A stretch of 7,753 bases of DNA, taken from an uncultured Ruminococcus sp. (GTDB lineage Bacteria > Bacillota > Clostridia > Oscillospirales > Ruminococcaceae). Below are positions 69-7,753 of the stretch, piece after piece (position 1 is the first letter of the stretch; every line of letters starts with the position of its first letter). The notes under the pieces were generated by a model. The model saw only the letters and a list, made by a program, of their open reading frames with translations, was not told where the DNA came from and made no database searches. The position numbers and the translations under genes are program-made. Location of the stretch: the NCBI GenBank assembly GCA_947176565.1, contig CAMWRC010000047.1, positions 1 through 7,753 of the forward strand, in the 5' to 3' direction.

Positions 69-2405
69 TTATTCAGCAACGATTTCCGGAAGTTCCTTTA
101 TTGCCCCTGCATCAAGTTTCTGAATTGCAAGAGCATCCATAGTTGAAAGTCCGTCGCCCGGATTATAACAGTCAGCATTCTTAGCACCCTGTTCGGAAAG
201 CGTATATTTATCCTTGTTTCCGAGGTACTGGAGAATTAATGTAGCATCAGCTACGCTGACTTCATTGTCACAGTTTGCATCGCCATACATCGAAACCTTA
301 ATGTCATCGCCGCCTGTTGCAGGTTCAGCCGGTTTCGTAGTTGTGGTAACTGTTGTTGTGGATTCGTCCTTGAGATATGCAGAAATAATCTTCACGCCGT
401 CGGTATCAGCTGCTTTATCTCCCTCGCCTGCATACCAGACCTGTCCCTCATAAACTGTAGCTTTGCCCAGTTCGGCTTTGAGTTTCGCGAAAAGCTCCTC
501 GTCCTCGATTTCATCTGTACCAAGTGTTATATTAAAGAGATTGTCAACAACATTAACCTTTACAGAACCGCTCTTTGTGGCTTCCCACTGAATATTAGAC
601 CAGTAATACTCTCCGTCAAGAGGAATAGTTACGCCGAGTCCGCCGTTTGCATATGTGACATTTTTCGGAAGTTCGACATCAATGTAAAATTCCTTTGCTT
701 CTTTCGGAAGCGTTATCTGATAGCTCTTTTTAGTTTTGTCATAGATTACCTTGCCGTAATCCTTTGATGGGTCAGCCTCTGTAGTTGCTACAGTTGTTGT
801 GTTTGCAGGGTCTTTTGTGGTAGTGGGCTTTGTTTCAATCGGGTCGGGCTTAGGAGTTTCTTTTGAATAAAGGTCAGCCGGAAGCTCATCAAGAGTAACA
901 CAATATTCGCTCTGATACATTGCGATTGTATCTTCTTCTGTATTGAATATCGGATCTGAAAGGAAATTCGGATTATCACTTTCAGCACTGCCGCCTGCAT
1001 CATACCATGTCATAAAGTATAACCAGCCTGCTTTTTCGGAAGTAAGATTCTCTACAGTTGAGAAACTGTCGTTTTCAGCCATTGCAATCATCTTTGTACT
1101 GTCATACTTATCCATGATTCCGTAGAAAGTCGAACTGATTGCGCTGTCGTTATGATATGCTTTTTTAGTTCCTGTAGACCAGTCTGAGCAGTTGTACTTA
1201 TCATAACCGATAATATCAACGTATTCATCTCCCGGATACCAGTCCTGAGAATATTCATAATTATAGCTGTTCCATACCCAGATAAGATTATGACAGTCAA
1301 AGTCCTCTGTAAGTACCTTATATGTGAATTTCCACAATTCCTTGTAAGCTTCTGAACCTTCTCTGCCCCACCAGAACCATGAACCTGTTTCACCGCCGCC
1401 GCCTTCAGCTTCGTGAAGGGGTCTCCACATTACCGGAACTCCCTCAGCTTCAAGCTCTTTAAATTCCTTTGCAAGAGTTGTCAGAGCCTGCATATAGTAC
1501 TGGTTTTCCTTAGTACCTTCAACAACAACTTTTGAAGGTGAGAAGTCTGTGATTTGACTGTATGTAGTCTGACCCCAGTCTATTCTGTCGCCGATATTAT
1601 AGCTTGCTGTATCTTTCGGAACATTGAGATGGAAGGATGCTGTGGCAATACCGTTTTTATTCTTTACCCAGTCAATAACACGCTCTGTAGAGCCGTCATC
1701 GCTTCCGAATGCAGGACAGCAGAAATTACCGTAGTCAAATCCGCGTATAGCAGGCATATGACCTGTAAGTTTTTCAAGATATTCAAATTCCTGTTCTAAA
1801 CCATGAGGACCGCCGCTATAGATTTCCTGCTGACCCGAAATAATTCCGTTTCCGTAAACGCTTGCGAGATATGACATCAAAGCTCTTGTCTCGTCAGTTG
1901 CATTAACATCACAGCAGGTTGTCTGTGTTGCCTTGATTGGCTTGAGTTCAGCAGCCTCGACTGTGAGATAGTCAAACTTCGACCAGCCCCATGATTTACT
2001 TATAGTAACCGTATTTTTACCCTCATTGAGCTTTACAGTCATTGAAGTCGGACTATATGTCTTACTTTCGGCTATGCTGATATTTCCCTGGTCTACGCCG
2101 TTTATAGCGAGAGTCTGGATTTTATCTCCGCCCTCTCCCATTGCATAGATTGAAAGAGTATACATTCCGGTTGACGGAGCTTCAACTTCCATGCTGATAG
2201 TGCCGTCCTCTTTCATAAAGAGTATTTTTCCACCGCTTGCAGCCGAATCATCGGTTACGGCGATAGTACCTGTAACTGCAGCGTCCTCGAACTCATACTT
2301 TGCAGAATCGGCAGCGAAAATATTCACCGCACCTATAGCCATGCCATTAATCGCCATAGATGCAGCCATAACAGCCGCTCCTGCTTTCTTCATAAATTTG
2401 TGCAT
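69..2405 (-). CDS. Secreted dockerin-bearing GH26 glycoside hydrolase (probable beta-mannanase) with CBM35-like module
   Basis: Predicted secreted GH26 endo-acting hydrolase, probably a beta-1,4-mannanase, carried on a cellulosome. Residues 1-31 form a signal peptide (KK, hydrophobic core, likely cut at A31/A32). Residues 36-150 look like a CBM35 module with the terminal WGW...FDYLTVE signature. GH26 spans about 160-512: WRPLHE supplies the general acid/base E332, GSWFWWG (341-347) lines the active site, and E444 in MAEND is the likely nucleophile. A P/T linker (515-548), an unassigned beta-rich module (549-680) and a Thr linker (682-699) follow. The dockerin is 703-770, with a canonical first calcium loop (D709, N711, D713, D720) and a longer second loop (D745 to D757). 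The start is set by GGAGGG at 2414-2419, 8 nt before ATG; an internal ATG at codon 5 is less likely. Substrate is inferred: some GH26 members cut xylan or mixed-linkage glucan, but mannan is commonest. Confidence 0.93.
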   Translation of the reverse strand: MHKFMKKAGAAVMAASMAINGMAIGAVNIFAADSAKYEFEDAAVTGTIAVTDDSAASGGKILFMKEDGTISMEVEAPSTGMYTLSIYAMGEGGDKIQTLAINGVDQGNISIAESKTYSPTSMTVKLNEGKNTVTISKSWGWSKFDYLTVEAAELKPIKATQTTCCDVNATDETRALMSYLASVYGNGIISGQQEIYSGGPHGLEQEFEYLEKLTGHMPAIRGFDYGNFCCPAFGSDDGSTERVIDWVKNKNGIATASFHLNVPKDTASYNIGDRIDWGQTTYSQITDFSPSKVVVEGTKENQYYMQALTTLAKEFKELEAEGVPVMWRPLHEAEGGGGETGSWFWWGREGSEAYKELWKFTYKVLTEDFDCHNLIWVWNSYNYEYSQDWYPGDEYVDIIGYDKYNCSDWSTGTKKAYHNDSAISSTFYGIMDKYDSTKMIAMAENDSFSTVENLTSEKAGWLYFMTWYDAGGSAESDNPNFLSDPIFNTEEDTIAMYQSEYCVTLDELPADLYSKETPKPDPIETKPTTTKDPANTTTVATTEADPSKDYGKVIYDKTKKSYQITLPKEAKEFYIDVELPKNVTYANGGLGVTIPLDGEYYWSNIQWEATKSGSVKVNVVDNLFNITLGTDEIEDEELFAKLKAELGKATVYEGQVWYAGEGDKAADTDGVKIISAYLKDESTTTVTTTTKPAEPATGGDDIKVSMYGDANCDNEVSVADATLILQYLGNKDKYTLSEQGAKNADCYNPGDGLSTMDALAIQKLDAGAIKELPEIVAE

Positions 2406-4339: not shown

Positions 4340-4360
4340 GCATTTTTTCAGGAATAAACA

Positions 4361-4390
4361 AAAGCTCCCCTGATTTCTCAGGAGAGCTTT
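4361..4390 (-). terminator. Intrinsic terminator of the surface-protein gene
   Basis: A 13-bp stem (4361-4373 with 4378-4390) with a single C/A mismatch closes on a 4-nt loop and contains AAAGCTC/GAGCTTT and CCTGA/TCAGG. On the minus strand it is followed by TTTTGTTTATT. It starts about 30 bp past the stop at 4422. Seven Ts on the other side would let it act in both directions, though both flanking genes are minus-strand. Confidence 0.88.
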
Positions 4391-4421
4391 TTTTATACGT
4401 CATTCGGGAAGAACAGGATTA

Positions 4422-7400
4422 TTATTCCTCGTCTTCTCTCTTTCTGCGAACTGCAAATGCTGTCATAGCTGCTACTGCCAATGCGATTCCTGTAACGCCT
4501 ACGCCGATATCGCCTGTCTTAGGAGCGTTTGTCTTTGCTGAATAAGTTGTTGTTGCTGCTGTTGTTCTTGTTGTTCTTGTTGTAGCAGCAGCGGTGCTGT
4601 GAGTTGTTCTTGTTGTGGTTGAAGTTGTGACAATCTTTTCATCAATCATCGTTACAGTATTGCCGTCAACGCTTACTTCACCTGCTATAACACCGTTAGT
4701 TACTGTGAACTTGATGTCTGTAGCAACTGCATATCCGTCCGGAGCAGCTACTTCGTGAAGTACATAAGTACCGTCTGCAAGCTCGCTGATGAATGTTGAA
4801 GATGTACCAGAAATCCATGTGAGTGTCTTTCCGTTTTCTTCAGTTACAAGTTTTGCACCTGTTCCGAGAACTACCTGTGTAAGGTCGAAAGTAATATCAT
4901 TACCGTCTGCATCAACACCGCTGAGTGTAAGCTCTGCGCCTGCAAGTTCTTCGCCAAGTACGTCCTGCTTGCTGATTTCAACTTCTGCAAGTACTCTCTT
5001 GTCAATCATTGTTACAGTAGTTCCCTCAACTCCTACAGAGCCGACGATAACGCCAGATGCAATAGTGAATGTAATATCTGTAGCAACTGCATATCCGTCC
5101 GGAGCTGCAACTTCGTGAAGTACATAAGTACCGTCAGGGAGATTCTTAACAAGTGATGATGTCTTTCCTGAAATCCATGCAAGTTCTGTACCTGCTGATG
5201 TCAGTGCAGCACCTTCGCCGAGTACGAGTGAATCCTGTGTAAATTCAACAGCATTTCCGTTGAAGTCTGTTCCCGTAAGTGTGAGTGACGCACCGTTGAG
5301 TTCTTTGCCTGCGATGTCCTGCTTGCTGATTGTAACATCAGTAACAGTCATATCATCGACCATTGTTACGGAATCACTGCTTACGCCGACTTCGCCTGTC
5401 AGAACGCCGTTTTCGATTGTGAATGTGATGTCTGTAGCTACCTGATAACCGTTAGGAGCTGTAACCTCGTGAAGTACATAAGTACCGTCAGGGAGATTCT
5501 TAACCAGTGTGGTCTTTGTTCCTGAAGTCCATGTAAGCTCATCACCGCTGCTTACGAATCCTGCACTCTCGCCGAGTACAAGTGAATCCTGTGTGAACTC
5601 GATTGTGTTTCCTAAGAAGTCTTTACCTGTAAGTGTAAGTGTTGCACCTGCGATTTCTTCACCGCTTACGTTTACCTTGCTGATTGTTACATCAGTTGTA
5701 AGCATATCGTCAACCATTGTTACAGAATCGCCTTCAACTCCGACTTCGCCTGTTACAACGCCGTCTGTAACTGTGAATGTGATGTCTGTAGCTACCTGAT
5801 AGCCGTTAGGAGCTGCAACTTCGTGAAGTACATAAGTACCGTTCGGGAGATTCTTAACCATTGAAGCTGTTGTTCCGGAAGTCCATGTAAGTTGGCTGCC
5901 GCTGCCTACAAGTCCGGCACCTTCGCCGAGTACGAGTGAATCCTGTGTAAATTCTACAGTATGTCCTGTGAAGTCTGTACCTGTGAGTGTAAGTGTTGCA
6001 CCTGCGAGCTCAGAACCGAAAACATTTTCCTTGCTGAGGTAAACATCAGTTCCGCTCATATCGTCAACCATTGTTACGGAATCACCGCTTACGCCGACTT
6101 CACCTGTCAGAATGCCGTTTGTGATTGTGAATGTGATGTCTGTAGCTACCTGATAGCCGTTAGGAGCTGCAACTTCGTGGAGTACATAAGTACCATCAGG
6201 GAGATTCTTAATCATTGTAGATGTTATGCCTGAAATCCATCTAAGTTCTGTTGTATTTTCCGTTGAAACAAGCTGTCCGTTTTCACCGATAACAACATCG
6301 TCAACTGAGAATTCTATGCTTCCGCCGTCAGCGTGTGTACCCGTGAGAGTAAGTGTTGCGCCTGCAATTTCAGAGCCGAATATGTTTACCTTGCTGATTT
6401 CAACATCTGTAACTGCAAAGTCATCAACCATTGTGATATCATTGCCGTCAACGCCGACTTCGCCGCTTACGACACCGTTTGAAATTGTGAATGTAATGTC
6501 TGTTGTTATTTCGTATCCATTAGGAGCTGAAACCTCGTGGAGCACATAAGTACCGTCTGCAAGATTTCTTATTGATGTAGCTTCTGAACCTGATATCCAT
6601 GCAAGTCCGTGACCGCCGGAGATAAGTTCACCGTCAGCACCTACAGTAACATCATCTACATTGAATTCAACATCTCTGCCTGTGATGTCTGTACCTGTAA
6701 GAGTAAGTGTTGCGCCTGCAAGTTCGTTACCAAGAATGTTTTCTTTGCTGATAGTGATGTCTGTGGAAATCATATCATCTACCATAGTAACAATGTTTCC
6801 GCTAACTTCTGATTCGCCGATGATATCACCGTCATCTACAGTAAATGTAATGTCAGATGCTATCTTATATCCGTTAGGAGCTGCCTCTTCATGGAGTACA
6901 TAAGTACCGTCAGGAAGATTGCTGATGAATGTAGGTCTTGAACCTGAAATCCATGTAAATCCAGATTCATCAGCCGTTACAAGCTGTGCACCTTTTCCGA
7001 GAATGATATTTTCGGAATCGAATGTAATTGAATTGCCGTCAGCATCTGTGCCTGTGAGAGTAAGTGTTGCACCGGGGAGTTCATCACCGTATACATTAGA
7101 CTTGCTGATTCTTACTTCACCGATTCTTGTATCAACCATAATGACTGTATCATCATCATGTCCGATAACGTGACCTCTTCTGATTGTGAATCTGATATCT
7201 GCAGAAACTTCAAATCCGTCAGGAGCTGTAGTTTCGTGGAGTACATAAGTACCGTCAGGGAGATTCTTAATGAGTGTATTCACCATACCGGAAATCCATG
7301 TCAGTTCTGCGCCGTCGCTTACAAATTCAGCACCATAGCCGAATTCTACATCATCAGCAGAGAAGTTAACAGCATTGCCGTCTCTGTCTGTACCTGTGAG

Positions 7401-7753
7401 TACGAGAGTTGCGCCTGCCACTTCAGTACCGTGAATATCCTGCTTGCTGATATTGATATTTGCAACGATAGTAGTAGTTGTTGTTGCTTCTGTTGTAGTT
7501 GTTGTTGTAGTATTTTCGTCCAAGTCGCCGCCCTCAATAGTAGGACGAGTTGTTGTGGTATTTATGTCTGTATCCGGAGCAACAGCGCCTGAACGTGTAG
7601 TTGTTATTTCCTCAGTTGTAGTAGTTGTTGTCGTTGTTGTAGTAGTTGTTGTAGTAGTTGTTGTTGTTGTAGTAGTTGTTGTTGTAGTTGTTGTTGTAGT
7701 TGTAGTAGTTGTTGTTGTTGTGGTAGTAGTAGTTGTGGTTGTTGTAGTTGTAT
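4422..7753 (-). CDS. Partial giant wall-anchored surface protein: poly-Thr tract, eight CnaB isopeptide domains, sortase signal
   Basis: C-terminal 1109 residues of a sortase substrate; the N-terminus, signal peptide and any binding domain lie beyond 7753. The frame is open to the window edge. A TTG at 7521-7523 could be taken as a start, but it sits inside continuous low-complexity coding sequence with no ribosome binding site and is rejected. In protein order: at least 46 consecutive Thr (7751-7614); a Thr-rich segment (7613-7464); eight CnaB-like beta-sandwich domains (7463-4632), each with ISK/LSK, WISG or WTSG, TYVLHE, AP(D/N)G(Y/F) and M(V/I)D motifs; a Thr/Arg/Ala linker (about 4631-4536); NAPKTGD (4527-4507); a hydrophobic helix; and the basic tail RRKREDEE. 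The layout is that of a rigid, protease-resistant stalk linked to peptidoglycan. An adhesin, pilin-like or scaffold role is inferred, not shown. It is followed by its own terminator and is not in an operon with the genes downstream. Confidence 0.93.
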   Translation of the reverse strand, partial: TTTTTTTTTTTTTTTTTTTTTTTTTTTTTTTTTTTTTTTTTTTTTTEEITTTRSGAVAPDTDINTTTTRPTIEGGDLDENTTTTTTTEATTTTTIVANINISKQDIHGTEVAGATLVLTGTDRDGNAVNFSADDVEFGYGAEFVSDGAELTWISGMVNTLIKNLPDGTYVLHETTAPDGFEVSADIRFTIRRGHVIGHDDDTVIMVDTRIGEVRISKSNVYGDELPGATLTLTGTDADGNSITFDSENIILGKGAQLVTADESGFTWISGSRPTFISNLPDGTYVLHEEAAPNGYKIASDITFTVDDGDIIGESEVSGNIVTMVDDMISTDITISKENILGNELAGATLTLTGTDITGRDVEFNVDDVTVGADGELISGGHGLAWISGSEATSIRNLADGTYVLHEVSAPNGYEITTDITFTISNGVVSGEVGVDGNDITMVDDFAVTDVEISKVNIFGSEIAGATLTLTGTHADGGSIEFSVDDVVIGENGQLVSTENTTELRWISGITSTMIKNLPDGTYVLHEVAAPNGYQVATDITFTITNGILTGEVGVSGDSVTMVDDMSGTDVYLSKENVFGSELAGATLTLTGTDFTGHTVEFTQDSLVLGEGAGLVGSGSQLTWTSGTTASMVKNLPNGTYVLHEVAAPNGYQVATDITFTVTDGVVTGEVGVEGDSVTMVDDMLTTDVTISKVNVSGEEIAGATLTLTGKDFLGNTIEFTQDSLVLGESAGFVSSGDELTWTSGTKTTLVKNLPDGTYVLHEVTAPNGYQVATDITFTIENGVLTGEVGVSSDSVTMVDDMTVTDVTISKQDIAGKELNGASLTLTGTDFNGNAVEFTQDSLVLGEGAALTSAGTELAWISGKTSSLVKNLPDGTYVLHEVAAPDGYAVATDITFTIASGVIVGSVGVEGTTVTMIDKRVLAEVEISKQDVLGEELAGAELTLSGVDADGNDITFDLTQVVLGTGAKLVTEENGKTLTWISGTSSTFISELADGTYVLHEVAAPDGYAVATDIKFTVTNGVIAGEVSVDGNTVTMIDEKIVTTSTTTRTTHSTAAATTRTTRTTAATTTYSAKTNAPKTGDIGVGVTGIALAVAAMTAFAVRRKREDEE
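4507..4527 (-). other. Sortase sorting motif NAPKTGD
   Basis: APKTG, followed by D, a hydrophobic stretch of about 20 residues and RRKREDEE, has the tripartite layout of a cell-wall sorting signal. The Leu of canonical LPXTG is replaced by Ala. Cleavage is expected between Thr and Gly by a housekeeping or dedicated sortase encoded elsewhere. Confidence 0.85.
4632..7463 (-). repeat. Eight tandem CnaB (SpyCatcher-like) domain repeats, period about 118 residues
   Basis: Repeats in protein order: R1 7463-7122, R2 7121-6768, R3 6767-6414, R4 6413-6054, R5 6053-5700, R6 5699-5346, R7 5345-4992, R8 4991-4632. Spacing between equivalent Lys residues is 114-120 residues. Each contains the predicted isopeptide Lys (ISK, or LSK in R5), the catalytic Glu in LHE before the AP-D/N-G-Y/F loop (A-P-D-G-F in R1), and the acceptor Asp in MVD (R1-R6) or MID (R7-R8). 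Numbering residues from the TTG at 7523, the triads are K27/E97/D131, K141/E212/D249, K260/E330/D367, K378/E450/D487, K498/E568/D605, K616/E686/D723, K734/E804/D841 and K852/E924/D961. R1 is the most divergent; R5-R7 are the most alike. Confidence 0.93.
7614..7751 (-). repeat. Polythreonine tract, at least 46 consecutive Thr codons
   Basis: Every codon in the reading frame from 7751 down to 7614 encodes Thr: by hand count 26 ACA, 17 ACT, 2 ACC and 1 ACG. The tract runs into the window edge, so its true length is unknown. It looks like a long, probably extended and possibly O-glycosylated spacer. Shorter Thr runs follow at about 7548-7559, 7491-7511 and 7470-7484. Confidence 0.9.

Follow-up and report, generated by a model that had tools for sequence, protein, structure and literature searches.

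What are the eight similar domains for that stand in tandem before the sorting signal of an open-ended gene in an uncultured Ruminococcus sp.? The stretch of DNA analysed here, the window, is the entire contig CAMWRC010000047.1 (C47, 7753 nt, assembly GCA_947176565.1), from a source genome of 1.46 Mb in 262 contigs that is 66% complete. We propose, with a probability of roughly 0.8, that the eight domains are SpaA-type (CnaB-like) domains with Lys-Glu-Asp triads, predicted to lock themselves through eight Lys-Asp isopeptide bonds, and that, as a stiff stalk, they would present the adhesive head of a surface protein that is probably anchored by sortase. The identity of the repeats as isopeptide domains is well supported, and the formation of the bonds is predicted from the residues present.

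The repeats and their triads can be read directly from the DNA, as can the NAPKTG signal and the linkers rich in Thr. The reading frame of the array gene (4422-7751, minus strand) leaves the contig within 46 consecutive Thr codons. Its parts, and a hairpin behind it, are listed in the order of translation:

7614-7751, minus strand: poly-Thr tract (46 codons) at the edge of the contig, with the frame open beyond it
7458-7613, minus strand: Thr-rich linker preceding repeat 1
7116-7457, minus strand: repeat 1, 114 residues (Lys 7443-7445, Glu 7233-7235, Asp 7131-7133)
6759-7115, minus strand: repeat 2, 119 residues (Lys 7101-7103, Glu 6888-6890, Asp 6777-6779)
6405-6758, minus strand: repeat 3, 118 residues (Lys 6744-6746, Glu 6534-6536, Asp 6423-6425)
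6045-6404, minus strand: repeat 4, 120 residues (Lys 6390-6392, Glu 6174-6176, Asp 6063-6065)
5691-6044, minus strand: repeat 5, 118 residues, modelled together with repeat 6 as the leading partner (Lys 6030-6032, Glu 5820-5822, Asp 5709-5711)
5337-5690, minus strand: repeat 6, 118 residues, modelled together with repeat 5 as the trailing partner (Lys 5676-5678, Glu 5466-5468, Asp 5355-5357)
4983-5336, minus strand: repeat 7, 118 residues (Lys 5322-5324, Glu 5112-5114, Asp 5001-5003)
4629-4982, minus strand: repeat 8, 118 residues, the repeat chosen for modelling (Lys 4968-4970, Glu 4752-4754, Asp 4641-4643)
4530-4628, minus strand: Thr-rich linker following repeat 8
4422-4529, minus strand: sorting signal with NAPKTG, a hydrophobic stretch, RRKREDEE and the stop codon (4422-4424), assigned by eye and conserved in the sister species
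4360-4391, minus strand: terminator-like hairpin, 30 bases 3' of the array gene's stop codon, a consensus match only

An earlier, sequence-only reading of this DNA had placed eight tandem repeats at 4632-7463; they are present, at 7457-4629 on the minus strand. The Pfam SpaA family (PF17802) matches the array in eight stretches (E-value 4.4e-80, 264.4 bits against a curated cut-off of 23.1), and the repeats are 48-75% identical to one another (mean 58%). By eye, the C-terminal sorting signal consists of NAPKTG, a variant of LPXTG, followed by a hydrophobic stretch and a basic tail. Two Pfam sortase matches above cut-off were detected in the window genome. Because the contig ends inside the poly-Thr tract, any head and any N-terminal signal for secretion would lie outside the window.

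The same reading had claimed a complete triad at the positions of the CnaB2 domain of FbaB, whose residues we take to be numbered K31, E77 and D117, and all eight repeats do carry it. In the alignment of the eight repeats, 13 ungapped columns hold any Lys, and Lys is fixed in 8/8 only at the triad position; Glu is fixed in two of the 22 columns that hold it and Asp in two of 23, the triad Glu and Asp among them. The spacing is also regular, with 105-110 residues from Lys to Asp and 35-38 from Glu to Asp within each repeat, and 10-11 residues from Asp to the next Lys. The FbaB-like sequence blocks named earlier hold as a consensus but not literally (LAGAT is exact in 2/8 repeats, TWIS in 3/8 and AAPDGY in 2/8), and the final MVD is found in six repeats, while repeats 7 and 8 read MID.

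Homology to FbaB CnaB2 (Streptococcus pyogenes; PDB 2x5p; the parent of SpyTag/SpyCatcher) was borne out by a sequence match to repeat 8 (E-value 2.3e-8) and by a match to its predicted fold. HMMER aligned a 19-residue piece containing the Lys and a 62-residue piece containing the Glu; the Asp end lies outside this alignment, and its correspondence rests on the fold match of the model. The structure prediction that had been called for to compare the repeats with FbaB gave, for repeat 8, the one repeat compared with PDB, a CnaB-like fold with the Lys on the first strand and the Asp on the last. The model of repeat 8 and FbaB CnaB2 are 40% identical across 86 aligned residues and appear to share the fold, the strands on which Lys, Glu and Asp sit, and Asp as the acceptor. 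Unlike FbaB CnaB2, the Ruminococcus repeats add about 26 residues after the first hairpin (in the alignment of repeat 8, the stretch up to the TWIS-like strand has no FbaB partner), and they stand eight in tandem beside Thr-rich linkers. They also differ from the SpaA-type domain of Spy0125/Cpa (S. pyogenes; PDB 4bug, 2xid), in which Glu347 and Asp595 are 248 residues apart, compared with 35-38 here. Alignment A3, which was used for the model, has its L041 row cut before the Asp, so that the 'nearly invariant' Asp printed for it is an artefact. A two-repeat model (repeats 5 and 6) scored 93.9 in its best version. Two further PDB entries, 9vo4 and 9vo5 ('SpaA-like prealbumin fold domain-containing protein'), match the array by sequence about as well as FbaB does.

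The uniform Asp had been considered notable, a view that the relatives do not bear out. Asp is the acceptor in 128 of the 137 scored domains from 18 same-genus loci and in 651 of 760 from 118 homologues (P0003-P0120, from the best 120 of 980 database homologues), as counted over non-overlapping sequences with a profile built from rows already spanning the three triad columns. The full triad is present in 127 and 651 of these domains, respectively, and Asn is the acceptor in 4 and 85. Rows whose matches stopped before a triad column were left unscored (68 of 205 in the same genus and 267 of 1027 in P0003-P0120). SpaA is catalogued as Lys/Glu/Asp in Table 1 of a published survey (PMC12617251). 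Since Asp is usual in the relatives and SpaA is listed with it in print, Asp is the normal acceptor here.

The array is shared with a sister species, another uncultured Ruminococcus sp. (CAMWYX010000006.1; genome G060, with G143, 90% complete, judged to be the same assembly from its identical coordinates). The sister protein has eight repeats in the same order, each with the triad, and is 89% identical to that of the window, with a ratio of nonsynonymous to synonymous substitution rates (dN/dS) of 0.23 over 1009 aligned codons. Its contig likewise starts within a poly-Thr tract.

In FbaB, the reactive Lys and Asp join spontaneously, catalysed by a nearby Glu, and tie the first strand to the last (PMC5487036). 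By analogy, as each Ruminococcus domain folds, the Glu would assist the attack of the Lys amine on the Asp carboxyl with the loss of one water, so that each domain should be about 18 Da lighter and the eight-repeat piece, with a calculated average mass of 97,951 Da, about 144 Da lighter. A pulling force entering at the first strand would then pass through the bond and exit by the last strand, bypassing the 105-110 residues between Lys and Asp, so that the array would behave like eight covalent rings on tethers of 10-11 residues. If the bonds form, they and the tethers would carry the load and the domain bodies would be spared. Sortase would fix the protein to the wall, and the stalk would keep the likely adhesive head clear of it.

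The presence of triad residues is no proof of bonding, and the fold and residues could be in place with the bonds partly absent or slow, which would leave the array a plain repetitive spacer. Several observations count against a locked stalk. Some SpaA-type domains bond slowly, as described for the SpaD pilin (PMC4014117). Full triads are missing from 10 of the 137 scored same-genus domains, and the bond is therefore not universal in the family. Two of the five versions of the two-repeat model drop to 70.1 and 65.3, and the fold comparison with PDB covers repeat 8 alone. However, triads are kept in 8/8 repeats of the window and in 8/8 of the sister while most other charged positions vary, and we regard a plain spacer as rather unlikely.

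Two other architectures would give the same domains a different role. The protein could be a subunit, backbone or ancillary, of a sortase-polymerised pilus and not a monomeric adhesin: the fold matches of the model are largely pilus proteins, and NCBIfam models for an ancillary pilus protein (pilus_ancill_1, 187 of 600 bits) and for the SpaH/EbpB pilin (83.5 of 95 bits) match, both below cut-off. However, none of the four neighbouring genes in the window encodes a pilin (a pilin motif was not searched for), and each closed relative is a single chain, 1,120-4,334 residues long, with its own sorting pattern; we consider a pilus subunit quite improbable. It is harder still to credit that the protein is the cell-wall scaffoldin of a cellulosome, with an array that merely spaces cohesins from the cell. 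An adjoining GH26 enzyme has a dockerin match below threshold (17.4 of 22.9 bits), but cohesin is absent from Pfam scans of the part of the window frame within the contig and of a relative of 3,386 residues (L043). Our preferred reading is a self-locking stalk.

The array family is widespread in the genus. With repeat 4 as the query, 34 of 60 genomes match, in 3 of 25 genera, and with repeat 1 (E <= 1e-20), 72 of the 125 genomes of the genus match, the window's own included in both counts. All twelve closed same-genus frames end in a matching sorting pattern, and one closed frame from another record (L042) does not fit it. The largest frame (L049) has 23 domain rows, 14 of them with a scored full triad. 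There is perhaps an even chance that the window shows one end of a class of giant isopeptide-armoured Ruminococcus adhesins, of 1,100 to more than 4,000 residues with up to 23 domains, poly-threonine hinges and a modified CnaB domain with an insert. Such a class would have been largely overlooked so far, since poly-threonine codons interrupt short-read assemblies and the published, structure-based survey went no further than 1,280 residues.

Isopeptide domains in tandem are already known from sortase-anchored fibrillar adhesins, and the array is a further example of this kind. Like the fibrillar adhesins of that survey (PMC12617251), the Ruminococcus surface proteins are long, repeat isopeptide domains along the stalk and carry a sorting signal; unlike the surveyed models, which extend to at most 1,280 residues, the closed relatives reach 4,334. 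The string 'Ruminococc' does not occur in the main text of the survey, and no study of this array, or of isopeptide stalks in Ruminococcus, was found among the listed titles and abstract openings of open-licence PMC articles. If the bonds form, the surface stalk of this gut commensal should withstand both proteases and pulling forces, much like the surface proteins of streptococci. With eight Lys-Asp domains that have diverged naturally within a single chain, the array would also allow a comparison of which domains tolerate being split into ligation pairs; an earlier study found that two of four CnaB domains worked after splitting (PMC5487036). Judging from the wider family, large isopeptide surface proteins seem to be common in this genus and prone to truncation when metagenomes are assembled.

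Two kinds of head can be considered for the window gene. One is an N-terminal region of 835-898 residues, A1, found in four relatives (L043, 13197-15890; L044, 13442-16033; L045, 5134-7665; L046, 9034-11538), which are 35-42% identical to L046 in this region. Scans of two A1 sequences (L043 and L045) against Pfam and NCBIfam gave no match, and A1 may be an undescribed adhesive head. The neighbours of the array gene in the window (a small membrane protein, endonuclease III and GH26) adjoin an array gene in 5 of 20 relative loci, and A1 is the head in 5/5. A profile search of seven genomes detected A1 in four (G021, G032, G027 and G005) and gave no match in the window genome (G000), the sister or G003; a single-sequence A1 query, run without a positive control, also gave none in the window genome or the sister.

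The other candidate is a choice-of-anchor A / pAdhesive_15 head. Together with SpaA domains, it is encoded by a second large gene in both the window genome (L010, contig C74) and the sister (L064, contig C45), and both frames run off their contigs in a Thr-rich tract. Closed genes combine this head with a related array in two same-genus loci, L050 and L103, which resemble the window gene in having SpaA repeats and the sorting pattern (the repeats of L103 are at most 61% identical to repeat 1) and differ in that the neighbour genes of the window were not found alongside, in the stretches fetched. ClpB, upstream of the head on sister contig C45, is found in 0 of 20 relative loci; absent neighbours are weak evidence, since several fetched stretches have short flanks. 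The sister's contigs C39, C47 and C82 also end in Thr tracts, and C45 is therefore not the sole possible partner. Gene neighbours thus favour A1 and contig ends favour the choice-of-anchor A head, and we assign neither to the window gene. A conserved upstream gene was considered as a bridge and rejected, as the upstream genes of L043, L044 and L046 looked different by eye.

The main text of PMC9210967 contains none of the terms 'pAdhesive_15', 'SpaA' and 'Ruminococc'. In L050 (G030, contig 11), a second pAdhesive_15 domain apparently lies inside a SpaA repeat, as judged by eye, and recalls the large insert of Spy0125/Cpa. Finally, the neighbouring enzyme (69-2405, minus strand) matches GH26 and CBM35 above the Pfam cut-offs and, given also its sub-threshold match to a type I dockerin, is possibly a cellulosomal mannanase.
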